Assembly (NCBI RefSeq): GCF_030463535.1
Contig: NC_132878.1
Span: forward strand, 27,299,261 to 27,363,260
Length of the DNA: 64,000 nucleotides
Reading direction: 5' to 3'
DNA from: Salminus brasiliensis
Lineage: Eukaryota > Chordata > Actinopteri > Characiformes > Bryconidae
Below, piece after piece: positions 3,241 to 64,000 of the stretch; within the stretch, counting starts at the first letter, position 1, and the number at the start of each line of letters is the position of its first letter. Below the pieces are notes generated by a model. It was given only the letters and a program-made list of their open reading frames with translations, was not told the origin of the DNA and searched no databases. Made by a program: the position numbers and the translations under genes.

Positions 3241-5400
3241 TTTTGCATTGTGAGCATCTTAACCTATCTGTTAAGACAGCGTAAAAACACTGGCAAATAT
3301 GGTGCTACCAAACAGTCTAGAACCAGAGAAAGAATTCACAGCAACGTGACAGCTGAAAACTGACCATGAGTTGTTAGACAATTCTAGAAAGGTCTAGAAC
3401 CTAGAAACTAGACAGTCATGGAGGTACCAAACAATCTAGAACCTGAATGGCAGTTCCAGAATGTTAAAACAGTGCAGAACTAAACTGACAGCCAATAAGC
3501 CAGAACAGTTAGAAGAAGGTTTGGCTGTTCTTCTCTGTGAACTCCAGACACTGTATGTACTGGTTCAGTGCCACCAGTAGCTCTCCAGATTAATAAAGGA
3601 CTGATTTGATAAACAAGGTGTTGGATGGATGCTGGGAATACTGGCCTTTGTCCAGGAGAGCACTGGGAACACATCTAGGACTTTGTGCAGTACTTTCTAA
3701 TCACAACATGATTTATCTCCACTGTGTGGCTCTAACTGACATTCAAGAAATGTCAAGAAAGGCCATCAAGAAACTTGCATTAGTGCCTCAGGAACTGGCC
3801 ACTGAGCATGATCGCTTATGCCAACCTGCACTTCCCACCACATCTACTGTCGACTAGATTCCATTCAGCCTTCCATCTCCACTGACAGACCACCAGTATA
3901 TGTGTGAGTGTGTTTTTGTGTGAAGCTCTGTATAAATAGTTAAAAGTCAGAACAGTTTATAGCTTTCTGGGCATTACTGTAGAAACCATGAGACAATTTT
4001 GGAACGTCTCCAAGCCTCAACAGTCTACAACCTGCCACAGAGTTTCTGAACATCCAAGAGCCCAACTGCCAGCTCTGGACTGTCTGAACAGTCTCAGATT
4101 ACCATGGATCTACTAAACAATCTGACTCATGATTGCAGGAGGCCTTAACCAAACTAATGATGGAGCTGTAGAATGCTCAATAGATCATTGTGAAATGTCC
4201 AACACCCTAGAACCCAGCAGATAGTCTGAACAGTGTAGAAACATGGACAGACATCTGGAATGTCTACCCACCAAGCACCAGATGTCACATGCACATTGTT
4301 TTTTGGGCTAAATCTGGTCGGTCCGTTATGGCCTTTATAAAGCCCCAAAATAGACATTGAAAGTGTTTCAACAGTGTGATTTGGTCCAAATTTAGCCCAG
4401 GACGTCTGGACATCTGTTTTAGACCATTTTCAGCTCTAATACAACCATGACAGTAAGTAACTAATGCAAATGTTATGTTCAAACCAAAAATATTTTATAT
4501 ACTCATTTTATATACTCAATACTCACTGCTATTAAGGAGACACTGTTAATTAATATAAATATTAATAAATGAATATGGTTTTATCTGTACATTTAGAGCA
4601 ATTATGAATATAATATGAAATAATGAATATTTGACCTGAAAAATATGGCTTTTTTTTTTTTACCTTTTTTTCAACCAAACATCAGCCTTATTGAGACGTC
4701 TGACAAATTTGCCCTTTTCAGCTTTTTTTATGTGTTTTTGCATTGTGAGTAGGACCAAGCTGACAACCAGGGTTATTAGAATGATACTAGCATAGGTATC
4801 CCAAGAAACAATAAACAGCTTAGAGACTGGTCTTACTTTTGAGGTTAAATTTTGCTTAATGACAGCATTTCCAGTGGGGAAACTGTGGGTAACTTTTTAA
4901 AATGTACTTTTTAAACGTTTTAATGTTTCTTTAATGCTTTTCTTTATTTAAAGCACTTTGAATTGTCAGTGTGTATGAAAGGTGCTATACAAATAAGCTT
5001 CCCTTACCCTGCCTACCTATTGAGCTACCAAACAGTCAAGAGCCTGATGGGCAGTTCCAGAATGTCAAAACAGTGTCGAACCAAACTGACAGCCATTAAA
5101 GTCCTGAATGTTCTATCAGAAATTGTGGAGTATCTGAACAGAATGGAACCAATTAGACAAGCCTGGACATACCAAACCATCGAGAGGCAGACAGTCTGCA
5201 ACAAAACTTATAACCAGTTGAGTTTTAGGGAATGTTTAAGTATCATACCAGCAATTCCAGACTGGATAATCCAATCTCACAAGCTTTAGAGCCTTACTGA
5301 TGACATCTGGCAACGTTGGAGCCCGTGAACATTCTACGTACAACAAAACCGATACCCAAGAACTACCAAACGTCTAAGAAATTCAACAGACCAGTCTGCA
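3241..5400. repeat. Degenerate dispersed repeat rich in 'caatctagaacc'/'cagttccagaatg' phrases
   Basis: Phrases such as 'taccaaacaatctagaacc', 'gcagttccagaatgt' and 'accaaactgacagcca' recur at 3300-3500, 4010-4230 and 5030-5110. They suggest an old, eroded tandem or segmentally duplicated sequence related to the one at 7480-8100. A LINE-like tail ('gtatgaaaggtgctatacaaata') sits at about 4970-4995. No gene was recognised. Confidence 0.4.
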
Positions 5401-12069: not shown

Positions 12070-13150
12070 TAGGGTTGCAAAGGGGTGGACAATTTCTGAT
12101 AAATTTCCAGTAAATTATCGGCATCTTTCCATGGGAAATTTACTCTGGGAACATTGGAAATATTCCAAAATGTAAACTTTCCATGGAAAATTTGGGAACC
12201 TATGGGAAATTATGGGAAATTTATTGTCATTAATAGAAAATATTGGATAATTTAAAAGAACTATTTTGTACACTATCATCAATGTCCCGTATAACAATAC
12301 AAATACTTTTACTGAGGGGATAAATGAGTAATTATGGGAATTAACTGGAATTAATGTGAATAAAATGGAAATATTCAAAGCTAAGGGTGAGAAACTTACA
12401 TACAGTTGGTACAAATATACTGAAGCAAAAACTTGGCTAAAATAATTAGATATGATACAGTTGAATAGTAAAACTGCTCCTCAATCCCAGGCACATGGCA
12501 CATTATACACTGAGGAGCTATTGAGAACACAGCCCCTGCATGTACTGTTCGTACCTCCATCACATGTACAGCTTAAGTCAAGATGATTTTTAGAGAGTCG
12601 ACACTCACCAGTACTGAAAGCACACATTTGGACCAGTGGACCAAAGTTTTAACGAGGTTTATATTTTTATTGACAGTAAAAGCACTGAAACATTTAAGCA
12701 AGTATTAAATCATGGTACAATCTCACAGTTGCTCGCTATCTGCTGAATCAGAAAAGCTTAATGAGCAATTTCATTTCAGACTAGTTTACCAAGGCTAGTA
12801 TGATAGCAAGAGGCTAAGTTACCAAGGCTGGCATAGGCTAGCTACCTATATTTTCTGCCTCAACTGGTTTCTGTAACCAATAATTAATACTTTAATTAAA
12901 TATTAATTATTAACATCAAATCAAATAAAGGTATTTTCCCACAAGCTAGTGGTGAGTGTCAGCTTTCTAGAAATCATCTGGACATATGCTGTACATGTGA
13001 TGGAGAAATGAACAGTGCACGCAGGGGCTGTGGTCTCAATAGCCCTTCAGTGTGTAATGTGCTATGTGCCTGGGATTGAGGAGCAGCTTTGCTATTCAAC
13101 TGTTTTGGTATTATATCTAATTATTTTAGCCAAGATTTTGCTTCAGGAAT
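12070..13150. mobile_element. hAT-like element with a long internal inverted repeat
   Basis: The left 340 bp is a familiar teleost hAT terminus: 'agggttgcaaaggggtggac' and repeated 'ccatgggaaatttactctgg' and 'tatgggaaattatgggaaat'. From 12419-12571 and 12985-13148 the sequence forms an inverted repeat of about 150 bp with high identity ('gctcctcaatcccaggcaca' against 'tgtgcctgggattgaggagc'), separated by about 415 bp. No transposase survives. The 99-residue frame inside is not credible. Confidence 0.6.
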
Positions 13151-39974: not shown

Positions 39975-40870
39975 ATAAGTTTACTGTAAAACTCTATATA
40001 ACATTAGAATAAACCCTAATAAACATAAAGTCAGTGTTCAGTGAGTGTGTTTAGTGTAAAACTCTATATAACATTAGAATAAACCCTAATAAACATAAAG
40101 TCAGTGGTCAGTGAGTGTGTTTAGTGTAAAACTCTATATAACATTAGAATAAACCCTAATAAACATAAAGTCAGTGGTCAGTGAGTGTGTTTACTGTAAA
40201 ACTCTATATAACATTAGAATAAACCCTAATAAACATAAAGTCAGCGGTCAGTGAGTGTGTTTACTGTAAAACTCTATATAACATTAGAATAAACCCTAAT
40301 AAACATAAAGTCAGCGGTCAGTGAGTGTGTTTACTGTAAAACTCTATATAACATTAGAATAAACCCTAATAAACATAAAGTCAGTGGTCAGTGAGTGTGT
40401 TTAGTGTAAAACTCTATATAACATTAGAATAAACTCTAATAAACATAAAGTCAGTGGTCAGTGAGTGTGTTTAGCGTTAAACTATATAACATTAGAATAA
40501 ACCCTAATAAACATAAAGTCAGTGGTCAGTGAGTGTGTTTAGTGTAAAACTCTATATAACATTAGAATAAACCCTAATAAACATAAAGTCAGTGGTCAGT
40601 GAGTGTGTTTAGTGTAAAACTCTATATAACATTAGAATAAACCCTAATAAACATAAAGTCAGTGGTCAGTGAGTGTGTTTACTGTAAAACTCTATATAAC
40701 ATTAGAATAAACCCTAATAAACATAAAGTCAGTGGTCAGTGAGTGTGTTTAGTGTAAAACTCTATATAACATTAGAATAAACCCTAATAACCATAAAGTC
40801 AGTGGTCAGTGAGTGTGTTTAGTGTAAAACTCTATATAACATTAGAATAAACCCTAATAAACATAAAGTC
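39975..40870 (+). repeat. 70-bp minisatellite, forward array (about 12-13 units)
   Basis: Unit: taaaactctatataacatta, gaataaaccctaataaacat, aaagtcagtggtcagtgagt, gtgtttagtg. Units are nearly identical, with recurring two-state positions (tttagtg/tttactg, tcagtgg/tcagcgg). The same unit in reverse complement forms the larger array at 51960-53768. Confidence 0.95.
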
Positions 40871-40943
40871 TAGTAAACAGTTAGAGTAAACAGTCTAGTA
40901 AACCCTAATAAACAGTTATAGGAAAACTACATGATTGGAACAC

Positions 40944-41170
40944 ACAGATCAGCCACTGCATTAAAACCTAATTGCTAATATTGTGTAGGTTGCAGGTCTC
41001 CTTCTTGCAGCCAAAAGGCCTCTGACCCATCAAGGCATGGGCTCCACAAGACCTCTAAAGGTGTCCTGCAGTATATGGCACCAAGATGTTTGCAGCTGGT
41101 CCTACAGCAGTCCTGTAATTTGTGAGGTTTGGCCTCCATGGATCTCATCAATGATGTCAACAGGACTTGC
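40944..41170 (-). mobile_element. Tc1-like 5' fragment
   Basis: 'atcagccactgcattaaaac', 'ctaatattgtgtaggttgca', 'gcatgggctccacaagacct' and 'ctaaaggtgtcctgcagtat' follow the conserved end of the Tc1 family. The minus strand encodes the remnant of the transposase C-terminus. Confidence 0.75.
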
Positions 41171-41515
41171 AAAGAGAAAGCATTCTAGCAGTCTGACACG
41201 CCGCTGTCCCAGGCTAGCGCAGCAGCTGATCTCAAACAAGGGGGAACTTGTGCCAAGGGAATAGACCTTGCAAGCAAAACACAGCTTGGGATATTAGTGA
41301 TGGATGACACACAGCAGTGTGTGAGAGCTGTACATCAGAAGGTCAGAATTCCAGGTGCTGATGGCATGGAGACCAGTTGATCATGTGCAGTTTGCCTGCA
41401 TTATATATCACTATATGTCTTCCTGACATTAATTATGGCATATTTTAATGTAATTAATGCGTTTTTGTATGTTTTTTCAATGGTACTCTACAGTAACGCT
41501 CTCAGTCATTAAATA
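41171..41515. other. Non-genic DNA, nothing recognised
   Basis: No supported feature. Confidence 0.4.
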
Positions 41516-41519
41516 AGCA

Positions 41520-41660
41520 TGCATAGTTGCCAGCTTGATGGCCAGCTTGGTCAAGCTGGTCATGCTCAAATGAAAACATACCTGGACGACCAGCTTTTCA
41601 ACTACCTTGACCTTTCAAGACCAGCTCAAGTTCGGTCTTGAGCTGCATTTTGTAGCACGG
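41520..41660. mobile_element. 'ccagcttggtca' palindromic MITE
   Basis: 'cagcttgatggccagcttgg', 'tcaagctggtcatgctcaaa' and 'gaccagcttttcaactacct' match the family at 15.3 kb. Confidence 0.55.
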
Positions 41661-41690
41661 TAGTGAGGACTACTTACTTTCTGGATTGCT

Positions 41691-41710
41691 CAGACACTAG
41701 AGGGCGCTCC
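41691..41710 (+). promoter_or_regulatory. CTCF-like motif (strong core match)
   Basis: CACTAGAGGGCGCTCC matches the CTCF core almost perfectly. It lies between the forward 70-bp array and amer1. Binding is not shown by sequence. Confidence 0.4.
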
Positions 41711-41919
41711 TGAGTGAGTCCAAATTGTCTGCCCTTGTCTTCTTCAAACAGAAGAGCATAAAAAAGTTTTCAACATTCATTAAATATTACAGACACGTTT
41801 TGTTTCCATAGCTACGTCGACAGACTTTTTGACAGGTTAAAATGTTTGTTGTTAAACATCCTTTGGGTGAAAACTATTGGAGGACCAGCTGTTCATGAAT
41901 GAATGAATGCATTCAGATA

Positions 41920-42213
41920 CACAGCTTGTCTAGTTCCTGTAGAGAAGTATGGGCAGTAGAATTGGACACTCTGGAGCAGCTAAACATGAACCTATGGGCA
42001 CCATGCCTAATGCCAGGTGTGGATCTGTGGAGCAGTGGAACTGGGTTCTCTGGAATGATGGTGCTCCATCCTGTACTTTTGGGATGAGGTGGGGAGTTGG
42101 GGATGAGGTTGGGTGGTGATCATCCAAAAGCAGGATAAGCTCTTTTTTTCGTTATCATGGATTTCAGAAGAAACAATCAATGAGCAGGTGTCCCAATACT
42201 TTTGTCCATATAG
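41920..42213 (+). mobile_element. Tc1-like 3' remnant
   Basis: 'actctggagcagctaaacat' and 'ggatctgtggagcagtggaa' are eroded transposase blocks. The terminus 'gtgtcccaatacttttgtcc' with 'atatagtg' closes the element at 42213. Confidence 0.65.
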
Positions 42214-42550
42214 TGCATCATTGAAGAACTACCATGTTAGCAATAGCTTGCCAAGAAAGCTATCAGTGTTTCTAACAGAACAGTTTTGACATCAGCAGCT
42301 AGAATCTGAGAGAGCACAATAGGCCTTGCTGTCTGAGGGTTGGGTTGATGGCAGTTCCCCTTGTCATCACTCCTAGTGTGATGCTGGTCAGCACAGGTGT
42401 CTGTTAGCTGTTGTATCGGAGTTAGGGAACCGCGCTTCCCTCCGAGTATGCTGGCTACGTAGTGGGCTGGCAAATTAGGTAGAAAATAGGGTAAAATTAG
42501 AAGTAAATTACTAGAAACTTTAGAAAGCCAGTGATTGCTTGACTACTAGG
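42214..42550. other. Spacer, nothing recognised
   Basis: No supported feature between two Tc1 relics. Confidence 0.35.
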
Positions 42551-42554
42551 ACCA

Positions 42555-42965
42555 CTAGCGGCCAACAGCTTGAGTCCATTGACCCAACCTGCCTTGTGTC
42601 AATAGTCCAGGCTGCTAGAAGTGGCTATTTGAGTTTTGTTGCTGACCATGTGCATCCCTTCCTGACTCTTCTAATGGCTGCATCCAGCATGATGATGCAC
42701 CATGTCTCAAAGTCCTTTAAACTCATTTCATGAACTGGACAGGAGTTCTTCTGTGTTCTTTCTAGTCACAAATTCAATAGAACACCTTTGAGATGTGGTA
42801 GAACAGGTGCTTTCACAGGATGAAAGTGCTTCTGAAAGATCTACAGAATTGCGTGACACAATCATGTCAACATGAACCAGGTTCTTAAAGGAATTTATCC
42901 AGCAGACTCTAAGATCAAAATAAGACCCTACCCACAATTTGTGCTTGGTGAGTGTATATAATAGG
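42555..42965 (+). pseudogene. Tc1-like transposase C-terminal pseudogene
   Basis: 'gaccatgtgcatcccttcct', 'gatgatgcaccatgtctcaa', 'aatagaacacctttgagatg' and 'cagaattgcgtgacacaatc' are in the order of the C-terminal third of a Tc1 transposase, including the NPIEHLWD-type block ('atagaacacctttgagatgt'). The end 'ggtgagtgtata' is the terminal repeat. It is frameshifted throughout. Confidence 0.7.
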
Positions 42966-43142
42966 CCTCTACCCCCTTTCTTCAATGATAAGGTACTACC
43001 ACAGGAGCAGCGTTGACCGTGGACCAGCACTGCAGTGACGCTCACTGTTTACTCACAGAAACTCACTGTTTACTGTTGATTGCGTTATTTAGACGTTATC
43101 TCTGATGGTGGCAGGATTTTAGATGACTGGCAGCCGCTGGAG

Positions 43143-43143
<1 letters not shown>

Positions 43144-43192
<49 letters not shown>
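43144..43192. repeat. (AC)n microsatellite
   Basis: About 24 uninterrupted AC units. Confidence 0.95.
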
Positions 43193-43194
<2 letters not shown>

Positions 43195-44115
43195 AGAGTT
43201 GGTGGTTGTCAAGGAAACAGGCTTAAAAAACTGCATGGCAATGTCTGACCATTTTGTGTATCACTTGCAGAAGGTAGATATTCATCACCAAAATGGGGAG
43301 TGGGATTTCTAACCCGTGACTGAGGCAGAGTGATCCAGCAGTGTTCTCCAGGGCATCCCTGACACTTTAACGCAGTATCATCCAATCAGCTGTGGCGGGG
43401 AGTTCTCATCTACAGGGACAGTCATGACACAGACAAACCAGCTTTGGTTTCCGTACGAACTCTTCAGAAGCTCTATAGAGTTGAAAAACAATCTAAATAC
43501 AATTTACAGGGTCTTTACCAGTGGACCAACAACTATGTCCAAATGTTATTCACTAAAGGGCCTGTATCCTTCATATCCAACATTTGACTTCACCCCACCC
43601 TGTTCATGTGAACTCTCCCCGTCACTAGCACAAGCCCCTGGGTTTGCTACAGCACATGCCACCTCGTCTTTTCAAACAGCCCGATGCAGCAGGGCTAGGT
43701 AGCCAGCACGCCACACCAATACAACACCAATACAACAGCTAGCAGATGTTTGTGTTTACCAACATCCCACTACAACTGCCATCAACCCATCCCTGAGAGC
43801 GCAAAGCCAACTGTGCTCTATCAGACTCTGGCTGCTGATGGCAAACAGCAAGATCTGGGATTTAAACTAGCGATGCTCAGATCAATGTAGCAAAGCTTTA
43901 GTCCACCAGACCACCTTTTATTTTTGTTACCATGCTTTTGAGACTAATGTATGTAAATGAGCTCTATTCTGGTTGGCTGTTTAGAGGTGTACTGTGCCAT
44001 TTTTTTAACTTTGGTGTAAGCAGCGCTGGCTGAACTGCAGTACGCTGAAGAGGTGGATATTTGGAAATGTGACCTTACAAACATACATACATAATATATA
44101 TATACACATACATAC

Positions 44116-44154
<39 letters not shown>

Positions 44155-44184
44155 AACTACAGAAATGACAAATAGACTTTTTCA
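43193..44184. other. Intergenic DNA 3' of amer1 with a (TA)n microsatellite
   Basis: (TA)n lies at 44118-44152. The 92-residue frame at 43424-43702 was not recognised. A possible minus-strand AATAAA is at 43917-43922. Confidence 0.45.
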
Positions 44185-47135
44185 GTTTGAGATGGGAGTT
44201 TATTTCCAGTTGAAAAGTATGCAATTATCCTGTGTTTTTGAGTGTCAAAAGCACTGGGATGTGTCCAGTACTGTCTGGGGGGCAGTATTTGTGAGGAGAG
44301 TGTTCTGGACAGTGGGTGGATAAATCCCACTCTTTGTGTCAAAAACATTCATTGTCTGTGTATATACATCCATATGTATAAAAAGAAGAGAAGAAAAAAA
44401 AAAAGTATAATTTTCTTGTGATGGTTTGCGCCAGCTTATACGTGCCAGCAAATAGAGTGAACATTCAATCACTGATCACAAAAAGGACTGTACCAAATGC
44501 CAAAACATACAAAATGAAAACACTACAAACGATTTAAAAACTTGTCACGAGCTCAGAGACAGCATTGAATTTGTTAGAGAAAACGTGTGTTGCACGAATA
44601 TTGTAAGTGCAGGACATTGGCCTTGGCATCGTTTGAAAAACGTACGCCATCCTGTGGTATTGAGATAGTCTAGACATTCTCTCACGGCTACGTCATTTTA
44701 CTGAGCTGAAGAACGCCTACGTCGCAAGTATCTACAACACTTCAAAAAGGTGCCACAGAATGCATGTATTCAATATTTTCAATTGTTCTCTGACGGCTAC
44801 ATAGATGTATGCGAGTATCCGACTCACGAATAATTTAATTAGCTCTGCTCTGACTGGCTGGCTGGCTTACAGCGAGGCACTGTGATGGCTCACACAGAAT
44901 CAGCACGTCTAGCATAGTCATAATTAGTTAAGTTTGGTCATTTTTTTCCTGTAATCATTCCTATTAACAGGTAGCCCGGCTAGCTGAATAGCCAGCATGG
45001 AATGCTGCTAGGCTGGGTTAGCTTTTAGCCTAGCATGGGTACTGGCTTCCTTCCCACTGCTTTCAACATCCCTGCCCGAACAGAGGCATCAGGCAAAGCC
45101 GCGGTCACGAGGCCTGCTTTGAGTAGCAACCAGAGAATGAGTATTTTCCAGCATCCAGCAGAGTCTGGAGGCGATATGCATGTTCACCAGTATTACTGAT
45201 ACACACCGTGGGAATGATTTGTTGTCAGTTTTCTGAGACAAAGCACCATATGCTCTGAAACTGGCTGCTGTCTGTTACCAGCCTGCCATCCTAAACTAGG
45301 GCAAGAACGCTGGTTTATGTAAATATTGGGGCTGTAAATATTAAGAAGTCAAGCCTGTTATTTAACTGTGTCCTTACTCAACTTTGTCATGGTCAATGAA
45401 AGATTTTCATTCTAGGGCACCTTTAAAAGGAGAATTCCACCAATTTCTCAGAATTTCAGCATACTTCAATGGTTAAGATGCAAAGTTGTTCAGAGTGGTT
45501 TGCTTCCGCTCTGTTCTACAGATACTTGCAGAGTCTGTGCACAGTGGTGGTGAATGGCGTCTGTCTCTAAAAGCTTCATCACACACAGTTATTACACCAC
45601 ATGGTTATGAGTACATTGCCTGATGCCGGAGACCCTGTTTTACCATACATTTTTGGCCTAAAATGTGATTTAGAGGACGAAAGCTGATGAAGCTGTTTTT
45701 GTTTCCCCCAGACTTGCTACAGTTTCACCATAAACCTTACATACAGACACATTTAGGTTCACTGGTGGTTTCGGATAATAAAACGTATGGCTACCAATGT
45801 GAATGTGTCCCTACAATAAACAATTTGCCACCAAACCCACTCCGAAACATGATAATCTCAACCACTGAACTATTCAGAAATTTGGAAATTGGCAGATTTT
45901 CAGTGGAAAATGTAACTTGTGTAGCTAATTCAGTGTTTTCTGGAATGACTAGACACAAAGCTAGCATAGCTAGTTTCTCCTGCTTTAAAACTGTCGAAGC
46001 TTTAAAGCTAATTTGTTAAGCCGCCCATCTTTTTCGACTGAATGGAAAACCGTGATGTGTTCACGTATACTATATATATAATGTTATTATACATTCACTA
46101 GCAAGACAACAGTGTCTTTTTCCATCTGACGACCTTTTGATAAATGAACTAATGAAGCTTGATGGCCAAGCTTTTTATATATTTTAAAAACAAAAGGTTT
46201 CTGCCCTTGTGCTACGAGCTGGGCAAACCTCTACAGACCTCTGAAGACACATTGTCATTTTGTAGAACTGAAGAAGAAAAAGTAGTCATCCCTGGCCAAA
46301 AACTTGGCCATTTTTCTTAGTGGGGGAAAAATGAAGAGCATTTTTGAGACCCTCCAGTATCTCACCCTGTGGTAAACAAACCAGTTCCAAACCCCATATG
46401 GTTTGTCTACATTACTGAACTTGGCCGTGTACCCCCACGCTTTTCTTTGTGTGCGCTCGCAGTTCCTTACTAATGTAGTGCAGAAATGTGTAAACTAAAA
46501 TGCTAATTGCAAAATAAACAAATGACTGAACAGTTTAAAAAATGTAAACATGAAACAGCGTAACAGCATCTTCGAAAGGGTAAGAGAACCCACAAGTTCC
46601 AACTCACATTCATTGTCCATTTGCTCTTTAAAGGAAAATGTCTGATAATCCATATCATTGCCCAATGAAGTGGTATTCCAACAGGGGTGAAATCTTTAAT
46701 ATGCCAACACTGCCTCTCTGCTCTGCTAGCACATAGGCTATATGGAGGGAGGGGATACTCAAAGGGATACTTATTATCAAGTCAAATAACTTTCAAAACA
46801 GAAAAAAGCTCCATATCTGGTCCACAATGATCATAAACACACCTGCTACATGTAGGCAAAACAAAACAATATTGCTAATCATAAAAAACAGCATGGCAGC
46901 TAAAGTGAGAAATAAAAAAATAATGGTGGAAAGGAAAATCAAAATCTACACCTTCACTAAAATATATTAGCTTATCTGGAGATAACAACAAAGGGGTGTG
47001 GGAGGATAGGTGTGTACAAATAAGAATGGTCAGTAAACATCCAGCTGTGTCTTTGGTGATGAGACCTATCTACCTTTTTTTTTTTCTTTCTTTCTTTCTT
47101 TCTTTCGTTTAGCATGAAGGAAAACTGATGATTGT
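44185..47135 (-). other. amer1: Probable amer1 3' UTR
   Basis: About 3 kb follows the amer1 stop codon in minus-strand sense without another gene. A minus-strand AATAAA at 44199-44204 is a plausible poly(A) signal; ATTAAA near 46697 and 44828 are alternatives. Mammalian AMER1 also has a long 3' UTR (from memory). A (CTTT)n stretch lies at 47086-47105. The end is inferred and earlier termination is possible. Confidence 0.35.
45415..45860. mobile_element. Dispersed MITE-like repeat
   Basis: 'aaaaggagaattccaccaat', 'cacagttattacaccacatg' and 'ggagaccctgttttaccata' recur in related form at 56700-56890 ('aaagttattacaccaaatgg', 'tgtgttttaacatagttttg') and 19750. It would lie within the proposed amer1 3' UTR. 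Confidence 0.5.
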
Positions 47136-50132
47136 TTACATGGTACGTTTAGGCGTTGCTGTGGAGAACCCCCCCTCCATTTCTGCCCTCCTAGTCTTGG
47201 CTGTTAGCTCTCTTGGGTTCTCGGATAGGTCAGAGCGAAGGTGGGGTATACCCTGGGTAATCCCAACTGGTCGACTCTTCCACTGTGTTCCGGATGGTGG
47301 GTTACTGCAGGGGTAAAGGGCATCACCTCCACCACCCATTATGTCCCCTTCAGCAGTTACTCTGGCTATACGTGCCGAGCTGCCACTGGGACAGGAGGCC
47401 TTTAGGGGGAGGTGTGAGGGTCTGACTGTTGATTGGCAGTTAGAAGTACAGCTCGACATCGTTTCCATCCATGGACTGCCTTGGGTGAACGTTTGCTGCT
47501 GCTGAGGAGAGAGGGCGGCTTTGTGAGAAGAGTCAAATACACAACCATACCCCTGCCTCCAACCATCTACACGATCCTTTCCTGGATGCCGCGGTAATGC
47601 CATGTCACAACTGTTTCCTGTTTCAGGGTTATTTTTCTTGCGGTGGAAGGAAGGAGCCATCTTCGAACCATGGGAAGCTACCGAAGCATAAAGCTCGCTT
47701 GTCTGGAACTCCAGACTGTCTGTGTCCAGAGAGCGGCTACGTCGGTTAAGTGCTAGCGGAGCGGGAGCAGGAGGGCCTGGTCGGCCCAGGCTAAGGTGCC
47801 GAGGAAGGCTCGTAATGCCCCAAGCATTGCTGAACAACAAGCTTTGCTCATAGACATCAAAGGTTCTCTGATCACACTCAGCAAAGGCGTCCTGCTGTAG
47901 ATAGCAGCCATCTTCCTCGAATGGCTCGTAAGGAGAAGTTAACTCCTCCTCCTCCTCTGCAAGCTCTGTCTGCTGTTCGCATTCGCCCTCGTTCTCCATG
48001 TCAACCACATCAAAGGTGACAATGGCAGGAAGAGCGCTCAGGCTTGGGCCAAAAGGTGAGCTGGACTCTGAACCATCCAGGCTCTCTGTAGAGTTGCGGT
48101 ACAGTCTGGTGTTTTTGGTGAAGTCTACTAATGCTTGCGAGAAACAAACCATTAGCTCCTCTTGTGACTGGCTGCAGCCTCTGGTCGGCGGTAAGGAGCT
48201 TCCATCTAGAGCTTCACAGCGTTCTTGCTCAGGATACAAGACTGTGTCTTGAGGAGGACTAGGTGTCTTCGAGACCTGTGGACTGAACCTCGAATCAGCC
48301 TTAGATCCATATAGGGGTTTGTGCTTGAGCTGAGGCCCACTGTGGGACAAAGCCTCCTTTATGACCTGGGATCCTTGCACTGGTCTGGCGCCATGCTGAT
48401 GGAGGTCATCCTCAGCTGGGCTTTTGCAGTTATCCTCAAGGTTTGTGTCACTATAGAAACAATCACCACAATACAGGACCTGATCTTTGGATGGGCTTCT
48501 CAGGTTCTGCAACTCACAGCACAGCAAGGCATGCTGAATCTTACTGAGACGTTCCTCCTCTGTCTCCATGGCACCGGTTTCCAAGGCATACAACAGGTCT
48601 CCTTTACCTTTGCTGCCCTGCACAGGGGCTCCCAGGAAACTGTGACTGTCTTTTGAGGGAATAGGTGGACTAAGCAGTCTGTCATCAGGCTCAAAAAGTT
48701 CATAAAGGGCATCACCACTATAGCTGTCCCGGGGAAGTCTTTCTTGCTGTGGACACTCCCTGGTCTCCTCGTCAGCTCCCGGAGTAGTGGAATCATAGTA
48801 ACCTTCGTCACTGTTGGGCACAGATTCCTGTCGGTCACTCTGTGGGGTTAGAAGATCGGTGGGTGTGAGGGCTGTTTCCGTGCCTCCCAAAGGGCTAGTG
48901 CTGGTGTTGCCGCTACTGCTGGTCGTGGCAGTATGAAAGGTGCTGATTGGCTGATCAGGAGTGATTGACAAACTGTCGGTCTGCTCTGATGGGAGGCAGC
49001 AGGCCTCGTTGCCAGCATCTGACTCCCAGAGACTATGCAGGTACTCACTGTCCACCTCATCTGGTGTTGCCATCTCCTCTCCGCCACCCTGATAAGTAAT
49101 GAGGCAAGAGCTGCGTTTGCCGGCGTTGCGACTTCCCCTTTCACCCGACACTGAACTCTCTGCAACACTGACGTCATCCTGGTCAGCAATTATGTCCCCA
49201 CAACCAGTAAGAGAATCAAAGCTCTTCAGGGAAGACACATCGCCAAAGATCATATTCACATTGTCCGAGGAGGCGGACATCGAAGGTAACTCACCCTCAG
49301 GCACGTCAGTATTTAGTTCAGCCAGGCGAGCCATCTCAGAGTCCGCAGATAACGGCTGCCGATATGTAGACAGTCTGCCCTTTCTCTTTTTTTCCTCCTC
49401 CCCATCATCTTTTCTTTCATCTCCCCTTTTTTCACCTTCCTCTACCTCACCCACCTTTCCCTTGCTCCTTCGTTTCTCAGGCACTAGCATTTCGTCCTTC
49501 GTACATTCGTCAGCTGCAGAAGCAGGCGGCTTTTCGGAATCACCGCTATTAGCTGCAATAGGCACAACTGGCTCCAAGACCTTGTCCAGGCGACGGTCAC
49601 TGGCATCGCTGTGATGACCAGCATTCGACTGACCAGGCACTGTTTCACCCGAGGACATTTCAAGCATCTCAGTTTTTTCCAGTTCAACATTTTTGTTCTT
49701 TCTGTGTCTCCTAATGCTGCTAAAAAGACCTCTGAGGCCTCTTCTTTGTCGTGGGAGGGATTGTGACTTCGCAAGAACTTCCTGCGTTTTTTGGGAGTCA
49801 CTTGAGCCGTTCGGGTTGTGGAACTCAAAGTCCGCCGAACTCATATCACCACCGCCCCTGATGCTTTCCTCCCAGCATCCCCTGCTAACACCATCATACG
49901 TCTGGCTCTTGGTTACACCTGTTTTGGATGACCCCCTTCCTTGGCCCTTTCCCCGGCCTCCAAAAAAACTTGGGAGCATACAGATGCTCTTCCGACCTCC
50001 AAAAAACTTAAACGCTGTCTTCTTTAGCTTCCCCGTGGGTGGCGTCTGGGGCTGCTGGGGATCCTGGGATATGGGGTCTGATGGTAGCCCACCAGCCGCA
50101 CCAACTAGCTCACTTTCTGCTACGGTCTCCAT
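47136..50132 (-). CDS. amer1: APC membrane recruitment protein 1 (AMER1/WTX), complete coding exon
   Basis: The single uninterrupted frame encodes 998 residues (human AMER1 is 1135). AMER1 binds phosphatidylinositol 4,5-bisphosphate and brings APC to the plasma membrane. It scaffolds the beta-catenin destruction complex and also influences LRP6 phosphorylation. Family blocks seen in order: Lys-rich GKLKKTAFKFFGGRKSIC (34-51) with PSFFGGR (54-60); GLRGLFSSIRRHRKNK (132-147); FGDVSSLKSFDSLTGCGDII (296-315), KRSSCLITYQGGGEEM (339-354), LLTPQSDRQESVPNSDEGYY (427-446) and LPRDSYSGDALYE (466-478) in the APC-binding part; FSQALVDFT (664-672); NRRSRSLDT (796-804); C-terminal RPVGITQGIPHL (954-965). 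Acidic runs lie at 228-247 and 725-731. The Arg-Glu-Ala repeat I remember from the middle of human AMER1 is absent (here residues 530-545). The start ATG has G at -3 and +4. AMER2/AMER3 share some blocks, but the whole block order and the neighbouring asb12 favour AMER1. Confidence 0.96.
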   Translation of the reverse strand: METVAESELVGAAGGLPSDPISQDPQQPQTPPTGKLKKTAFKFFGGRKSICMLPSFFGGRGKGQGRGSSKTGVTKSQTYDGVSRGCWEESIRGGGDMSSADFEFHNPNGSSDSQKTQEVLAKSQSLPRQRRGLRGLFSSIRRHRKNKNVELEKTEMLEMSSGETVPGQSNAGHHSDASDRRLDKVLEPVVPIAANSGDSEKPPASAADECTKDEMLVPEKRRSKGKVGEVEEGEKRGDERKDDGEEEKKRKGRLSTYRQPLSADSEMARLAELNTDVPEGELPSMSASSDNVNMIFGDVSSLKSFDSLTGCGDIIADQDDVSVAESSVSGERGSRNAGKRSSCLITYQGGGEEMATPDEVDSEYLHSLWESDAGNEACCLPSEQTDSLSITPDQPISTFHTATTSSSGNTSTSPLGGTETALTPTDLLTPQSDRQESVPNSDEGYYDSTTPGADEETRECPQQERLPRDSYSGDALYELFEPDDRLLSPPIPSKDSHSFLGAPVQGSKGKGDLLYALETGAMETEEERLSKIQHALLCCELQNLRSPSKDQVLYCGDCFYSDTNLEDNCKSPAEDDLHQHGARPVQGSQVIKEALSHSGPQLKHKPLYGSKADSRFSPQVSKTPSPPQDTVLYPEQERCEALDGSSLPPTRGCSQSQEELMVCFSQALVDFTKNTRLYRNSTESLDGSESSSPFGPSLSALPAIVTFDVVDMENEGECEQQTELAEEEEELTSPYEPFEEDGCYLQQDAFAECDQRTFDVYEQSLLFSNAWGITSLPRHLSLGRPGPPAPAPLALNRRSRSLDTDSLEFQTSELYASVASHGSKMAPSFHRKKNNPETGNSCDMALPRHPGKDRVDGWRQGYGCVFDSSHKAALSPQQQQTFTQGSPWMETMSSCTSNCQSTVRPSHLPLKASCPSGSSARIARVTAEGDIMGGGGDALYPCSNPPSGTQWKSRPVGITQGIPHLRSDLSENPRELTAKTRRAEMEGGFSTATPKRTM

Positions 50133-50249
50133 GACGACTTTTTGCTTTGCTGCTAGAGTTGTGTACTCATGACAAGAACTCTGCTCCCAGGTGCAGATGA
50201 AAGCTTCCTGGCGAAGTCTGCATTAAACACACCCGTTGCCATGTCACAC
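50133..50249 (-). other. amer1: amer1 5' UTR part of exon 2, with an upstream ORF
   Basis: A splice acceptor (minus strand cttgttttttag|gtgtgac) places the exon start at 50249. A 29-codon upstream frame starts at the ATG 50242-50240 and stops with TAG at 50155-50153, 20 bases before the amer1 ATG and in another frame. It may lower or regulate translation of amer1. The acceptor has a long T-rich tract. Confidence 0.65.
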
Positions 50250-53200
50250 CTAAAAAACAAGCGAATACACAATTAGAATGATTGAAACAAACCAAACGAG
50301 ATAAGAGATAACAAGATAACAAACCATAAGAGACCATAACTTGGAGAAACAGTAACCGCATGTCTTCATGACCACAAAGCTTCCGTTCACACTTAAAAAT
50401 AGTTAACTGGGAAAATACAAGAAGCTGAAAACGTCCACAGTGCCTGGTGCACGCTTAAAGAGCATTGCCCCAAAACAAGAGCAGTACAGAGACTGCGTTC
50501 GCACACAAAGTTCAATTTTAATACATTTAAAAAGCAGTCAGTCCCAATTTGGTACCGCCAATTAACCCACCCCTCGTAACTCCCCCTCACACTAGCACTA
50601 TCCACTCTAGGAGCTTTAGGAAATGACTCCTTCAATACATTTCCTGACCTAGAGCTGGTTAGAAGGAAGTTGTTGATCACAGAATGCATGCAATCCATTT
50701 TTGTTAAAAATGGCTCACAGGTGGATGCAGCATTGGCATGTACATCCTTTACAACACTACACAAGGCAGCAGTGTGAAGTTAGCCAATGAATGAATGACA
50801 TTACATTTTGAGTGGTACATGCTCTCATGTACGGCGTCTGTGCCTGGCCGTTTCATATGCAATTGTCTCATCTTGGCCACTCACCCTGTGGTGCGTCCAC
50901 AGTAGGTTTGAACCAGCCTTTATAACTTCAGCATAAATGGGCAGAACACTCGGGACTACTAAACTGTTGTAGGCAGAATAGGTGGATACGTAAAACGTCA
51001 TTCAGAGCTGTTTTTAGCCCTGTAATTGCCCACTTCTCCAAGTTGCTAAAGGGCTAGATCACAAATTTTGTACATTATTCCATCCTGTTGACGTGTATGA
51101 CTCATTTTTTTATCCAGTGACTGATAGCATAGTAAAAAGCAGCACACCCACACTACTCAGTTAAAGTGCTGGCTGATAAAAATAAATAAATAAATAAAAG
51201 AAAAAAGCCCCCACATCTGATCTGTGAGCTAACAACGCACATTTAAACACTAACTGGATTTAGAAAGCACTGGTCAATGGACATTCACATTATTGAAAGT
51301 GGACGAAAGAACAAATGGTCTACACAGCAGGCACAGCAGCACAATGAGTTGACAGATGTCACTTAGACAAAGACTGGCCCTGTGGCGTAAGATTAACTCG
51401 CTAAGAGAGAAGCATCAGTCCCAGTCAAGGACAACTGAAACAGTACGCACAGTAATACAAGGTAAGGGAAGACAATATATTCATAGGCAGATGTATTACA
51501 TACACTGAAAATCTGAACTGGGCTTTTCACGTTTTGCATTACGATCTAGATTTTGAAACCACTACCACATGTAGGATCATAATGCTTGACAGAAAACAAT
51601 GTCTTTTTGACTCAGTCAGATGATTTTAGGCACATAATTGTGATTAATCTTGTATTTCCAAAAAGGCAACTTGACAGGAAAGGTGGAAAAATAATGTTCT
51701 TAACGTTAAATGAAAAACAATGTAAAACCATTTTATTCCAAGTAATTTTGGAGCATATCTATTGGTCCACTCATTACTTTCTGACTATTCATCATGACAT
51801 CAATCTATAATAAGATAAATCAGGTGTGCTGCTGAAGGAACTCCATGTACAGCTCCATTCAGTACCGGGAGTTCACAGAGAACAACCACCTGTGTCCTTC
51901 TAACAGAGTTCTTCTAGCCAACAGATCAATAGCTTTACTGACCAACAGCACATTCTGACCGCTGACTTTATTAGGGTTTATTCTAATGTTATATAGAGTT
52001 TTACAGTAAACACACTCACTGACTTTATGTTTATTAGGGTTTATTCTAATGTTATATAGAGTTTTACAGTAAACACACTCACTGACCACTGACTTTATGT
52101 TTATTAGGGTTTATTCTAATGTTATATAGAGTTTTACAGTAAACACACTCACTGACCACTGACTTTATGTTTATTAGGGTTTATTCTAATGTTATATAGA
52201 GTTTTACACTAAACACACTCACTGACCACTGACTTTATGTTTATTAGGGTTTATTCTAATGTTATATAGAGTTTTACACTAAACACACTCACTGACCACT
52301 GACTTTATGTTTATTAGGGTTTATTCTAATGTTATATAGAGTTTTACACTAAACACACTCACTGACCACTGACTGTTTATTAGGGTTTATTCTAATGTTA
52401 TATAGAGTTTTACACTAAACACACTCACTGACCACTGACTTTATGTTTATTAGGGTTTATACTAATGTTATATAGAGTTTTACACTAAACACACTCACTG
52501 ACCACTGACTTTATGTTTATTAGGGTTTATTCTAATGTTATATAGAGTTTTACACTAAACACACTCACTGACCACTGACTTTATGTTTATTAGGGTTTAT
52601 TCTAATGTTATATAGAGTTTTACACTAAACACACTCACTGACCACTGACTTTATGTTTATTAGGGTTTATTCTAATGTTATATAGAGTTTTACACTAAAC
52701 ACACTCACTGACCACTGACTTTATGTTTATTAGGGTTTATTCTAATGTTATATAGAGTTTTACAGTAAACACACTCACTGACCACTGACTTTATGTTTAT
52801 TAGGGTTTATTCTAATGTTATATAGAGTTTTACACTAAACACACTCACTGACCACTGACTTTATGTTTATTAGGGTTTATTCTAATGTTATATAGAGTTT
52901 TACAGTAAACACACTCACTGACCACTGACTTTATGTTTATTAGGGTTTATTCTAATGTTATATAGAGTTTTACACTAAACACACTCACTGACCACTGACT
53001 TTATGTTTATTAGGGTTTATTCTAATGTTATATAGAGTTTTACACTAAACACACTCACTGACCACTGACTTTATGTTTATTAGGGTTTATTCTAATGTTA
53101 TATAGAGTTTTACACTAAACACACTCACTGACCACTGACTATGTTTATTAGGGTTTATTCTAATGTTATATAGAGTTTTACAGTAAACACACTCACTGAC

Positions 53201-54572
53201 CACTGACTTTATGTTTATTAGGGTTTATTCTAATGTTATATAGAGTTTTACACTAAACACACTCACTGACCACTGACTTTATGTTTATTAGGGTTTATTC
53301 TAATGTTATATAGAGTTTTACACTAAACACACTCACTGACCACTGACTTTATGTTTATTAGGGTTTATACTAATGTTATATAGAGTTTTACACTAAACAC
53401 ACTCACTGACCACTGACTTTATGTTTATTAGGGTTTATTCTAATGTTATATAGAGTTTTACACTAAACACACTCACTGACCACTGACTTTATGTTTATTA
53501 GGGTTTATTCTAATGTTATATAGAGTTTTACACTAAACACACTCACTGACCACTGACTTTATGTTTATTAGGGTTTATTCTAATGTTATATAGAGTTTTA
53601 CAGTAAACACACTCACTGACCACTGACTTTATGTTTATTAGGGTTTATTCTAATGTTATATAGAGTTTTACACTAAACACACTCACTGACCACTGACTTT
53701 ATGTTTATTAGGGTTTATTCTAATGTTATATAGAGTTTTACACTAAACACACTCACTGACCACTGACCATGTTTACAGAAGATTCACAGAAGGGGGAGGG
53801 GTCGGATTGATAATGAAACTAAGGATTAGGCTGGGAAGGGAGGAGGGGTGGGGGGGTGTTAGATATCTTAATCCTTAATAGATTATCCAGAACCAGACGT
53901 TTAGTCAAAACCAGAAATCACAGAGGAATTAAATAATTCCCAAAAACTTGCATATAATGAAACGCGCTTGAATACAATAAGGCAAATCGTGTGCATTAGT
54001 CTGTATTACTGGCGCTGGTGGGGTATTGTCTTCCAGGCAACAGGCAACAGATTGTGGCTACAGCTCCAAACAGGCGGCTGCTAACCTTTGCAATGGGTAT
54101 ACAACCTAAACCTGAAATTACACACACGTGTTAGCTACTTATATAAAAGAGAGAGAAACCATATGCTGCCGCCACAGACGCAATTACACACATATACAAA
54201 GGGTTTGTCTCCCACAACATGAAGTTCGTAGTGAAAGTAGCTAGAGGTAGCACAGGCTAGCTAGCTAATCAGGTCAACATAAACCCAAAACAGAGACATA
54301 TCTATCAGGAAAAAAATGAATTCGCTTAAAGTCAAAATTGTTACACTAGACACGTAAACGCGGGGAAACTGTGTCTTCATGACAGCGCAGGTCTGCTCAG
54401 AAAACCTTCACAGCCCCTCTTCAAACGCTAGCAGGCTAACCGCTAGTCACGTTAGCCACGACTGGTAGTAATGGTGCTGGGAGCCGTTGTCGGTTCTCCG
54501 TCTAAATTAAACGCAAGTAAGGCTCGCGAATTATGAACCGGCATAAATGAAAATAACGCAAAACACGCTTAC
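50250..54572 (-). other. amer1: amer1 intron 1 (predicted)
   Basis: Bounded by the donor GAA|GTAAGC at 54572 and the acceptor at 50250-50251. It holds the reverse 70-bp minisatellite (51960-53768). The rest, 50250-51959 and 53769-54572, shows no gene; an A-rich stretch lies at 51178-51205. The predicted structure, a non-coding exon 1 and one coding exon, is the one I recall for mammalian AMER1. Confidence 0.55.
51960..53768 (-). repeat. 70-bp minisatellite, reverse array (about 26 units)
   Basis: Units read gactttatgtttattagggt, ttattctaatgttatataga, gttttacactaaacacactc, actgaccact. This is the exact reverse complement of the array at 39975-40870. The same two-state site (cactaaac/cagtaaac) varies in both arrays. 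Short units missing a few bases occur near 52370 and 53140. It occupies the middle of amer1 intron 1. Confidence 0.97.
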
Positions 54573-54660
54573 TTCAATGTCCCATTCCGCGTTTGCATGA
54601 AGGCGGTTAGCCAGTTAGCATCAATCTGTGCAGCAGTGAGAGGAAAAAAAGCTTTACCGT
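54573..54660 (-). other. amer1: amer1 non-coding exon 1 (predicted)
   Basis: In minus-strand sense a leader beginning near 54660 ends at 54573 with a consensus donor (GACATTGAA|GTAAGCG). It is CpG-bearing and lies just downstream of a ZNF143-type promoter element. The exact transcription start is unknown. Confidence 0.5.
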
Positions 54661-54695
54661 CTGGATGCCACTTTGTTCGGGTGGACTGGCCGAAC

Positions 54696-54715
54696 TGCAC
54701 CTTGGGAAATGTAGT
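54696..54715 (-). promoter_or_regulatory. amer1: ZNF143-type promoter element of amer1
   Basis: ACTACATTTCCCAAGGTGCA on the minus strand closely follows the ZNF143/SBS consensus ACTACAATTCCCAGAATGC. These motifs sit within about 100 bp upstream of transcription starts at CpG promoters, which fits the predicted exon 1 just downstream. Confidence 0.6.
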
Positions 54716-54834
54716 TGTAAACACCTGCATGGGTCGTTAGTCCAGACTACAGCACTGCTTCATCTTCGACTATGAATAAGTTCCCCTTTTTGCATCACCA
54801 TTGGCTGAGAGACTGCAGCTCCAAAAACAAGCTG

Positions 54835-55862
54835 ATGAGAGACTGTAACACAATATCACAATACCTACATTTAGAGTGTTATTAATATTCAACCCTAATG
54901 AGAGACTGTAACACACACCTCAGTTTATATCACAATACCTACATTTAGAGTGTTATTAATATTCAACCCTAATGAGAGACTGTAACACACACCTCAGTTT
55001 ATATCACAATACCTACATTTAGAGTGTTATTAATATTCAACCCTAATGAGAGACTGTAACACACACCTCAGTTTATATCACAATACCTACATTTAGAGTG
55101 TTATTAATATTCAACCCTAATGAGAGACTGTAACACACACCTCAGTTTATATCACAATAACTACATTTAGAGTGTTATTAATATTCAACCCTAATGAGAG
55201 ACTGTAACACACACCTCAGTTTATATCACAATACCTACATTTAGAGTGCTATTAATATTCAACCCTAATGAGAGACTGTAACACACACCTCAGTTTATAT
55301 CACAATACCTACATTTAGAGTGTTATTAATATTCAACCCTAATGAGAGACTGTAACACACACCTCAGTTTATATCACAATTCCTACATTTAGAGTGTTAT
55401 TAATATTCAACCCTAATGAGAGACTGTAACACACACCTCAGTTTATATCACAATACCTACATTTAGAGTGTTATTAATATTCAACCCTAATGAGAGACTG
55501 TAACACACACCTCAGTTTATATCACAATTCCTACATTTAGAGTGTTATTAATATTCAACCCTAATGAGAGACTGTAACACACACCTCAGTTTATATCACA
55601 ATACTTACATTTAGAGTGTTATTAATATTCAACCCTAATGAGAGACCATAACACACACCTCAGTTTATATCACAATACCTACATTTAGAGTGTTATTAAT
55701 ATTCAACCTTAATGAGAGACCGTAACACACACCTCAGTTTATATCACAATACCTACATTTAGAGTGTTATTAATATTCAACCCTAATGAGAGACTGTAAC
55801 ACACACCTCAATTTATATCACAATACCTACATTTAGAGTGTTATTAATATTCAACACTAATG
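54835..55862 (+). repeat. 74-bp minisatellite, forward array (about 14 units)
   Basis: Unit: tgagagactgtaacacacac, ctcagtttatatcacaatac, ctacatttagagtgttatta, atattcaaccctaa. The first unit lacks 'acacctcagttt'. Units are nearly identical. The reverse complement reappears at the right window edge (63883-64000). The array begins about 120 bp upstream of the amer1 promoter element. Confidence 0.97.
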
Positions 55863-56295
55863 AGATATTTATTTCTGATTTGTCTTTAGGATTTTGATTG
55901 CTTGATGTCAAAAATAACATTTTCAGTGCTGTGTTTGCTGCCTGATTGAATTTCTGAATTTGTGCACATTTATCACATATTTCACATTATCCAGTGGTTT
56001 TTAAGCAGTTATGCAAGGAAAGAAATGTGATATTTTGGAACTTACTCATATAAGTCATGAAAACTAGCTCCTACATACATAAATGTCTATTATTTATTTT
56101 TTAATAACATTTTTGTTCTTTCATTTTAAGCATTATTAGGTTGATTTAGATTTAGATTTTAGATTTAGATTTGATTTAGGATGTCATTCAGTGACAAATT
56201 GTGCACACATTCAAGAATTCAGACAGGGTCTTTTTTTTCACTGGACTGTATATTTTCATACTGAAAAAAAAATCATTTAAGCATTTAAGTTTTAA
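55863..56295. other. AT-rich intergenic DNA, nothing recognised
   Basis: A small 'gatttagattt' internal repeat occurs near 56140-56180. No gene. Confidence 0.45.
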
Positions 56296-57601: not shown

Positions 57602-58682
57602 AAGACAGTGTAGGCAGTTAACATACCAGTCAGAATTTTATAAATAATGTATCAGAATCAAAATTATTGTTGTTATTATATAGAATCCTGAAAATGAAAA
57701 GCCTTCACAAGTCTCAGTGTCTCCATTCTGCCTGCATGTCTGGTCCTCTCCTTTGTCCCCCTCTTACTTAATCCCACTCTACTTCTCTTTTTCTTTCCTT
57801 TTCCTCATCATCTCTCTCTCCTCACCTTTTCTTCCCTACCCATTCACACCTTGCTGTAACTTTCCCCCTCTCCTCTCTCCTCTCCTCTTTTCTCTTCTCT
57901 CTCTGTATGCACTCCCCCTCTGTGTGTGGTTACCTCTCTCTCTCAGCAGCAGTTCCAGGGCCTCGTTCTGTTTGGTGCTCTTCTCTATAATCAGCGTGGG
58001 CAGGTAGACATTAGCACCGAACTCGATCAGCAGTCTGACGAACTCAACGCTGCAGCCGTGTCTCAGGCACATCTCCAACACTGTCTTCCTGGCCGGTGCT
58101 GCCCTGTTGGACGACTTGTCCTCTGGCCAGTTGTAGTTGGGGTCGGCCCCATACAGCAGGAGGATCCTGAAGCAGTCCAGGTGGCCATAGACGGCCGCCA
58201 GGTAAAGCGGCCCGCTGCACACGGCCACGCCCGACGTCCACAGTGTGACCTTGGACCTGGCGTTGACCTCTGCGCCATGCTGGAGGAGATGGCGCAGGAT
58301 TTCGGCGTCCCCCTCGCGGGCGGCGGTCAGCACAGGAGAGCCGACGTTGCGGAGGTTCCCATTCGGGTCAGCACCGGCACGGAGCAGAGCCAGAACACAG
58401 CCCAGATAGCGTCCACAAACAGCTGAGAACAGCGGCGTCTGAGCCTTCACATCTACGCTGTCCACCTCCGCACCGTGGGCCAGCAGCAGCTGCAGGCACC
58501 GCAGGTGACCTAAAGACACAAACACACACTTTAATTGGTTTAATTGGAGACTTTAATGGATTTACAGTGAATGCTGGTTTAAGACTCGCTTTATCCCTTA
58601 AGAATTAAACAGGCTGTTTTTCGTTCTGTGCTTTTAAAGGGCCTATAGCTCACTCTCTCTCTCTCTCTCTCTCTCTCTTCCC

Positions 58683-63802: not shown

Positions 63803-64000
63803 TCCATTTCAACCCTAATGAAAGACTAACACACACTCCCTTTACATCACAATACCTACACACCTACACCTACACACAATTAATGTAGGTATTGTGATAT
63901 AAACTGAGGTGTGTGTTACAGTCTCTCATTAGGGTTGAATATTAATAACACTCTAAATGTAGGTATTGTGATATAAACTGAGGTGTGTGTTAATCTCTCT
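63803..64000 (-). repeat. 74-bp minisatellite, reverse array entering from the right edge
   Basis: A degenerate forward unit (63808-63860: 'tcaaccctaatgaaagacta') is followed by reverse units (from 63883: 'aatgtaggtattgtgatata', 'aactgaggtgtgtgttacag', 'tctctcattagggttgaata'). The reverse units match the array at 54835-55862. The array continues beyond the window. Confidence 0.93.

Follow-up and report, generated by a model that had tools for sequence, protein, structure and literature searches.

Inverted 70-bp minisatellite arrays around amer1 in Salminus brasiliensis are members of a dispersed family with region-specific variants

The window (the whole stretch of 64,000 nucleotides analysed here, C1:27.30-27.36 Mb of a 1.07-Gb genome) contains two arrays of one 70-bp minisatellite in opposite orientation on the two sides of the amer1 coding exon. 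Do these arrays form an inverted pair that belongs to amer1, or are they placed there by something larger than the locus?

The two arrays and the amer1 locus

39979..40870, plus strand: array 1, 70-bp minisatellite, 13 units, last one truncated (TRF and unit cutting)
51960..53768, minus strand: array 2, 70-bp minisatellite in opposite orientation, 26 units, last one truncated (TRF and unit cutting)
47136..50222, minus strand: amer1 coding exon (open frame), flanked by array 1 and array 2 (Pfam AMER, E 2.2e-89)
54301..54600, no strand: CpG-rich block, candidate amer1 promoter (CpG observed/expected 1.28)

The first-pass annotation described two arrays of reverse-complementary 70-bp units, with about 12-13 and about 26 copies, that bracket the amer1 coding exon and have a two-state variant in common. 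All of this was borne out. The AMER open frame lies between the arrays, and unit alignment gave identical 70-bp consensus sequences once array 2 was read on the minus strand. TRF placed array 1 at 39979-40870 (period 70, 12.8 copies, 97% matches) and array 2 at 52017-53767 (period 70, 25.1 copies, 98% matches); unit cutting put the edge of array 2 near 51960 and gave 13 and 26 units. In array 1 the repeat begins at 39979 and not at 39975. Site 6 of the unit is G or C in both arrays; 5 of the 13 units in array 1 carry C, as do 7 of the 26 in array 2. A second variant common to both, 57 T>C together with 6C, was found in units 4 and 5 of array 1 and unit 26 of array 2. The 33-base core of the unit had 745 exact matches genome-wide and the same letters read backwards had none, so the likeness of the arrays is beyond chance.

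Among 37 units (the two truncated units were left out), divergence was 2.4% inside array 1, 0.8% inside array 2 and 1.6% between them, and 72 of 300 unit pairs between the arrays were identical. The two arrays were slightly but detectably distinct (between minus within divergence; reached in 23 of 5000 permutations). Their longest exact tract in common was 309 bp, and the best local alignment had 878 identities in 890 aligned bases. No collinear unit order was detected between them (longest tract reached in 433 of 3000 order shuffles, local score in 166 of 300); there is thus no sign of a block copied from array 1 to array 2 or back. Mobile-element flanks common to both arrays were rejected: comparison of the 2.5-kb flanks gave one notable match, of 105 bp and 68.6%, at unlike positions.

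If the CpG-rich block is the promoter, array 2 would sit between the promoter and the coding exon of amer1. No donor site scoring at least 7/9 was found around this candidate, in 54201-54850. The predicted RNA structure of the 70-bp unit was weaker than that of shuffled sequences (z 1.30), and scanning the whole window with Rfam (at the gathering threshold) and for tRNAs gave no match. Nor were matches obtained in an exact search of viral and GTDB contigs with a 28-base unit core, in a blastn comparison of array 1 with plasmids and phages, or in a literature search with six 19-20-base strings of the unit.

A dispersed family around the window

At least 313 matches to the family were counted genome-wide; 522 of the 745 exact core 33-mers fall outside the loci counted here. 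Another 20 loci, selected for their match to the family, each had a uniform unit orientation. Within 2.06 Mb around the window (the left domain) there are at least 21 arrays of the 70-bp unit, 11 on the plus and 10 on the minus strand. Given this local density, an opposite-orientation pair as close as arrays 1 and 2 is expected by chance (P 0.72), and two additional opposite-orientation neighbour pairs lie within 20 kb in the left domain. Arrays 1 and 2 are not mutual closest relatives either, as 43 of 231 array pairs have a smaller net divergence. A view of the pair as a unit built around amer1 is not supported by these results. Both arrays are ordinary members of a dispersed family, the pair is not special, and the density of arrays in the region is probably what gave amer1 inverted arrays on its two sides. 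Arrays of opposite orientation showed no clear extra difference compared with arrays of the same orientation (559 of 5000 permutations).

These results bear directly on whether the pair affects amer1, be it through pairing within a strand, through inversion or through gene conversion between the two arrays. Its arms measure 0.9 kb and 1.8 kb and contain the exact tract given above, and they resemble the near-identical inverted arms around genes that mediate human inversions, as described in PMC3961182; for one of those, according to that source, the breakpoints probably fall within 782 bp of 99.9% identity. Unlike the human repeats, the arms here belong to a family with many dispersed arrays and have no known inversion, and the amer1 region is known from one assembly. 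Array density accounts for the pair, the arms have closer relatives than each other, and collinear blocks are absent between them. Intrastrand pairing or inversion of amer1 is possible in principle, but we regard an action of the pair on the gene as very improbable. A genome search should precede the assignment of function to an inverted repeat pair.

51799..51913, minus strand: diverged tail located 3' of array 2 (in unit sense), common to some other family arrays (HMM from five other loci, E 1.2e-13)
3515..3669, plus strand: further copy of the tail sequence, with no 70-bp units found adjoining (E 1.3e-39)

The same tandem unit occurs at many separate loci and no flank is common to all of them, as in a dispersed minisatellite. 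Among 33 arrays, flank likeness was found for 28 pairs on the 3' side and 2 pairs on the 5' side. A transposable element with internal tandem repeats was considered and rejected, the strong tail being one-sided and adjoining 6 of the 33 arrays, with the 5' side unshared except in the two pairs. No convincing terminal repeats or target duplications were found at the arrays of the window. Beside the tail copy at 3515..3669 the best match to the unit in 2801-4200 had an E of only 0.66. Long tandem arrays are error-prone in assembly, but these arrays differ in flanks, lengths and unit variants, which makes an assembly artefact hardly credible.

Variation among arrays and probable exchange within the region

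In the left domain, units from different arrays differ by about 3.4%. Of the variation among interior units, 87% was found within arrays (PhiST 0.133, 20 arrays); the PhiST among arrays was small yet clearly above zero (0 of 500 permutations). Forty-four variants were seen at least twice, and 35 of these were present in at least two arrays. At site 6, C occurred in 21 of 21 local arrays and G in 20 of 21. No majority allele was private to one left array; outside site 6 there were two majority departures, both found elsewhere. For the commoner variable sites, the fourth combination was lacking in 4 of 10 site pairs, and all four were present in 6 of 10. The presence of all four speaks for recombination within units, but recurrent mutation can also produce it.

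We consider it probable that the arrays are old and dispersed and that exchange inside a chromosomal region keeps them alike, so that they behave nearly as one population. This reading is drawn from the sequences of one assembly, from one individual of one species. Repeated short exchanges, with a reach of about 2 Mb, would keep the units alike, either by non-allelic gene conversion or by circle-mediated copying. The first-pass annotation had suggested, as one of two alternatives, that arrays 1 and 2 exchange sequence; exchange comes near to the reading favoured here, but its restriction to this pair does not hold, with site 6 in two states across 2 Mb. Variants at some 20 scattered arrays would then move nearly as a single pool within the region, giving a sequence-level handle on the reach and chromosomal geometry of non-allelic exchange.

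The age of the arrays is suggested by the tails. At six loci the mean distance was 0.198 for tails and 0.034 for units, in local alignments of 37-259 bases with gaps excluded, and the tails were more diverged in 15 of 15 pairs. However, the arrays may instead have joined tails that were already old, because the tail occurs at few of the arrays and one tail copy has no units. Edge units were more diverged than interior ones in 18 of 21 left arrays and 9 of 12 right arrays (the latter from the second domain described below), a divergence inflated by partial units at array junctions.

A recent local burst of insertion, for instance through circular DNA or a locally hopping mobile element, from one source array that already had both variants and with no continuing exchange, also fits the left domain, because similarity did not clearly fall with distance inside it (rho 0.114; 753 of 5000 permutations). 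Such a fall often accompanies regional concerted evolution but is no necessary part of it. The near-identity of the units and the mostly unshared 5' flanks agree with such a burst. The approximately 20% divergence of the six tails and the more diverged edge units disagree with it, as do the separate variants that the two domains hold besides the common ones. We judge the burst to be rather unlikely.

Two domains on C1

Three variants of the unit were searched as exact 70-mers. All 163 copies were on C1, 111 in the left domain and 52 in a second (right) domain at 67-74 Mb. The G-state had 68 copies, 67 at 26.61-28.60 Mb and one at 68.36 Mb. The C-state had 74 copies, 44 at 26.54-27.79 Mb and 30 at 67.08-74.00 Mb, and the 21 copies of the C-state with 39A were all at 67.08-72.42 Mb. 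Among fetched units, 6C was found in 124 of 260 of the left domain and 127 of 141 of the right, and 39A in 0 of 265 and 37 of 142, respectively; G at site 6 was rare yet present in right-domain arrays (9 of 141 units). The composition of the two domains differed (33 arrays; reached in 1 of 5000 permutations). In the right domain, the majority allele of one array was absent elsewhere there and that of another was seen once elsewhere. Each C1 domain thus carries a variant largely its own, and the arrays are alike by region, as in regional concerted evolution. A mirrored false duplication of the C1 arms is unlikely: among 11 right-domain loci, one of them wholly masked, flanks matched left ones at 3, as short diverged pieces.

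54853..55866, plus strand: 74-bp minisatellite (exact units found in the same two C1 regions as 70-bp units)
63902..63973, minus strand: single 74-bp unit, reversed orientation, near the window end (unit match)

All 97 exact units of the 74-bp minisatellite lie in the same two C1 domains. Its unit and the 70-bp unit aligned with a score that was reached by 382 of 1000 shuffles; the two are not detectably related. Not every minisatellite here is regional, because the 3 exact copies of a 47-bp minisatellite, the sole control of this kind, are all within the window.

The pattern departs, as far as the sources cited describe them, from two known systems, in its region-wise pool and in the two unrelated minisatellites in the same two regions. 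Drosophila 1.688 likewise forms short arrays scattered in euchromatin near genes, with strong enrichment on one chromosome, the X (PMC7642928, PMC7919458). Unlike the units of the left domain, its euchromatic copies are 14-43% divergent within species and more divergent than heterochromatic ones; they do not cluster by chromosome in the species tested, whereas variants here follow chromosomal region. Tribolium TCAST units are scattered among genes too, but cluster neither by array nor by chromosome (PMC3411249). Human MSR1, also a minisatellite with short units, reaches its highest density on a single chromosome arm (19q) and is found in promoters and introns; it differs in its unit of 36-38 bp and in being widespread elsewhere in the genome, and region-private variants such as those found here are not described in the available text of PMC4725990.

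Two explanations of the paired domains were weighed. In the first, the type of unit found at a site depends on how far that site lies from the chromosome end, and tandem repeats are exchanged between equidistant sites of the two arms. Clustering of chromosome ends in meiosis would let such sites exchange, each distance class keeping its own subfamilies. Schweizer and Loidl reportedly proposed equilocal exchange for heterochromatin blocks in 1987; if the explanation is true, C1 would show that process base by base. Measured from the two C1 ends, the 74-bp units occupy 26.06-31.28 Mb and 26.38-32.27 Mb, and their centres match with a post hoc P of 0.03. Among the matches listed, 73-bp relatives have their inner edges 3.681 and 3.665 Mb from the C1 ends. 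On C2 (60.5 Mb), some sites lie 26-30 Mb from the ends, but not one of the 163 exact 70-bp units or of the 97 exact 74-bp units was found there. Equal-distance exchange between the arms is doubtful.

The second explanation concerns the two domains only: one ancestral block was split by a large inversion or chromosome fusion and then drifted, its mirror placement being accidental. It is compatible with exchange inside each domain, and we give it a substantial chance, although somewhat short of even. The presence of two unrelated families in the same two places could be held against it, but is also predicted by a split and so is not decisive; the 73-bp relatives listed near both C1 ends would be unexpected from one split. 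In its favour, the C-state is common to both domains, with G mainly in the left and 39A in the right, and the length of C1, 99.4 Mb vs 60.5 Mb for the next of 21 contigs measured, suits a fusion.

Two inverted arrays around amer1

Unit comparison shows that the two minisatellite arrays flanking the amer1 coding exon (47136-50222, minus strand) have one 70-bp consensus on opposite strands, as the first-pass annotation had claimed. Window coordinates are as follows.

39979-40870, plus strand, 70-bp minisatellite, 13 units (array 1)
51960-53768, minus strand, same 70-bp consensus as array 1, 26 units (array 2)

The two-state G/C position of the unit (site 6) was found in both arrays, with C in 5/13 units of array 1 and 7/26 of array 2, and amer1 is an open frame between them. 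The observation on the arrays is thus confirmed, except that array 1 starts at 39979, not at 39975.

A CpG-rich block at 54301-54600 may be the amer1 promoter, in which case array 2 would sit between promoter and coding exon. Exon 1 of amer1 was not located; passages of PMC2949870 place the 5′ untranslated part of the mouse and human gene in further exons. Array 1 lies ∼6.3 kb beyond the amer1 stop, within the span of 11 polyadenylation-like signals 436 to 8651 bases downstream of it, and so may fall either inside the transcript or beyond its end. An ankyrin-repeat open frame is found at 57836-58552 on the same strand as amer1; from human synteny we take it to be perhaps an asb gene.

Array density and shared variants on C1

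Genome search of the 1,066,335,885-base assembly placed the window at C1:27299261-27363260 (C1, NC_132878.1). Of twenty further arrays, retrieved because the search matched there, 19 fall at 26.54-28.60 Mb and the remaining one at 68.36 Mb; none of them mixes unit orientations. With both window arrays, the left domain (C1 ∼26.5-28.6 Mb) holds 21 arrays (11 on the plus strand, 10 on the minus strand) over 2.06 Mb, a density that is a lower bound since arrays were found via high-scoring units. When the 21 arrays were placed and oriented at random, at least one opposite neighbour pair this close arose in 72% of trials, and two more opposite pairs exist at 17.6 and 18.5 kb spacing. In net divergence, 43/231 pairs (22 arrays) are closer than arrays 1 and 2, each of which has other arrays closer to it than its partner. 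The pair is ordinary for the region; the finding worth keeping is the regional sharing of variants.

The G/C variant shared by arrays 1 and 2 is present in both, as annotated, but belongs to the whole region, with C in 21/21 and G in 20/21 left arrays. Units covering at least 60/70 positions were kept (275/290, plus 132/137 from 11 loci of the right domain, C1 ∼67-74 Mb), giving 265 left and 142 right. Of 68 exact G-state 70-bp units genome-wide, 67 lie at C1 26.61-28.60 Mb and the other at 68.36 Mb; the 74 exact C-state units are divided between left (44) and right (30), while exact C-state units with 39A, a variant at unit position 39, are all in the right domain (21/21). None of these 163 exact units (three variants) was on any contig but C1. 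G at site 6 is rare but not wholly absent among retrieved right-domain units (9/141). The shared site-6 variants are a property of the region, not of arrays 1 and 2 in particular.

Dispersal of satellite DNA as short arrays is a familiar phenomenon (PMC10048060). In the portions of the literature covered, euchromatic copies of Drosophila 1.688 and Tribolium TCAST are without chromosome-specific likeness. The closest parallel identified among minisatellites enriched in one region is human MSR1, whose density peaks on 19q.

Exchange or burst

Arrays may be kept alike by sequence exchange or may stem from a recent burst of insertion from one source array; we favour exchange, with a probability of about two thirds. 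Unit variation is mostly within arrays (PhiST 0.133 left, 0.134 right), no left array has a private majority allele, and array edges are more diverged than interiors. When the flanks of 33 arrays were compared, 3′ flanks were alike in 28 pairs (some being leftover units) and 5′ flanks in 2, revealing a diverged 3′ tail; beside six arrays (4 left, 2 right) tails have a mean distance of 0.198 versus 0.034 for units (15/15 pairs). Low PhiST, the lack of private left majority alleles, tails diverged beyond their units and diverged edges together argue for exchange.

Since five of the six tail loci went into the tail HMM, independent matches are limited to the array 2 tail (E 1.4e-13), L015 (6e-07), L016 and L018 (both weaker than L015), L021 (far from its array) and window 3515-3669 (1.3e-39). 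The last copy, which has no 70-bp units, speaks against exchange, as do strong tails at only 6/33 arrays, similarity not clearly tied to distance in the left domain, differences among arrays above zero (0/500) and one right array with its own majority allele.

Two domains and other minisatellites

A second minisatellite of the window shows no detectable relation to the 70-bp unit in sequence comparison.

54853-55866, 74-bp minisatellite, 97 exact copies in the genome

Its exact copies fall at C1 26.06-31.28 Mb (76/97) and 67.11-73.01 Mb (21/97); by contrast, a 47-bp window minisatellite has 3 exact copies, all in the window. Distances from the C1 ends are 26.06-31.28 Mb (left) and 26.38-32.27 Mb (right) for the 74-bp family, and 26.54-27.79 Mb and 25.39-32.31 Mb for the 70-bp C-state. 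For the 74-bp centres, a match this good has a probability of 0.03 by chance, a value figured after the match was seen. The wider 70-bp family extends beyond the two domains, with 745 exact copies of a 33-base core and 1339 of a 73-bp relative genome-wide. Among the 100 of 1339 matches listed for the latter, all are on C1, 92 at 1.03-3.68 Mb and 8 from 95.72 Mb on, with inner edges 3.681 Mb from the left end and 3.665 Mb from the right.

Equal-distance exchange between the C1 arms is the bolder account of the two domains; one block split by inversion or fusion is plainer. C1 is 99.4 Mb, C2-C20 range from 60.5 down to 34.0 Mb and C21 is 0.4 Mb (the other 82 contigs sum to ∼164 Mb), so among C1-C21 only C2, and barely C3, are long enough to offer other sites at such a distance from an end. 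Neither carries an exact copy of the searched units, which argues against a simple equal-distance rule.

In the window, the 74-bp minisatellite likewise has units in opposite orientations within 9 kb of each other (54853-55866; 63902-63973). Among the matches listed, exact copies of the 73-bp relative are dense over ∼20 kb near the left end (C1:3.2366-3.2564 Mb), with recurring spacings. The window is rich in minisatellites: eight blocks (unit at least 20 bp, length at least 150 bp) at 7600-55865 cover 8626/64000 bases. At 31178-33589, a 32-bp unit (also called at periods 64 and 96) forms a 2.4-kb array. An inverted repeat at 12420-13146, with ∼200-bp arms 86% identical and ∼330 bp apart, resembles a hairpin-type mobile element.
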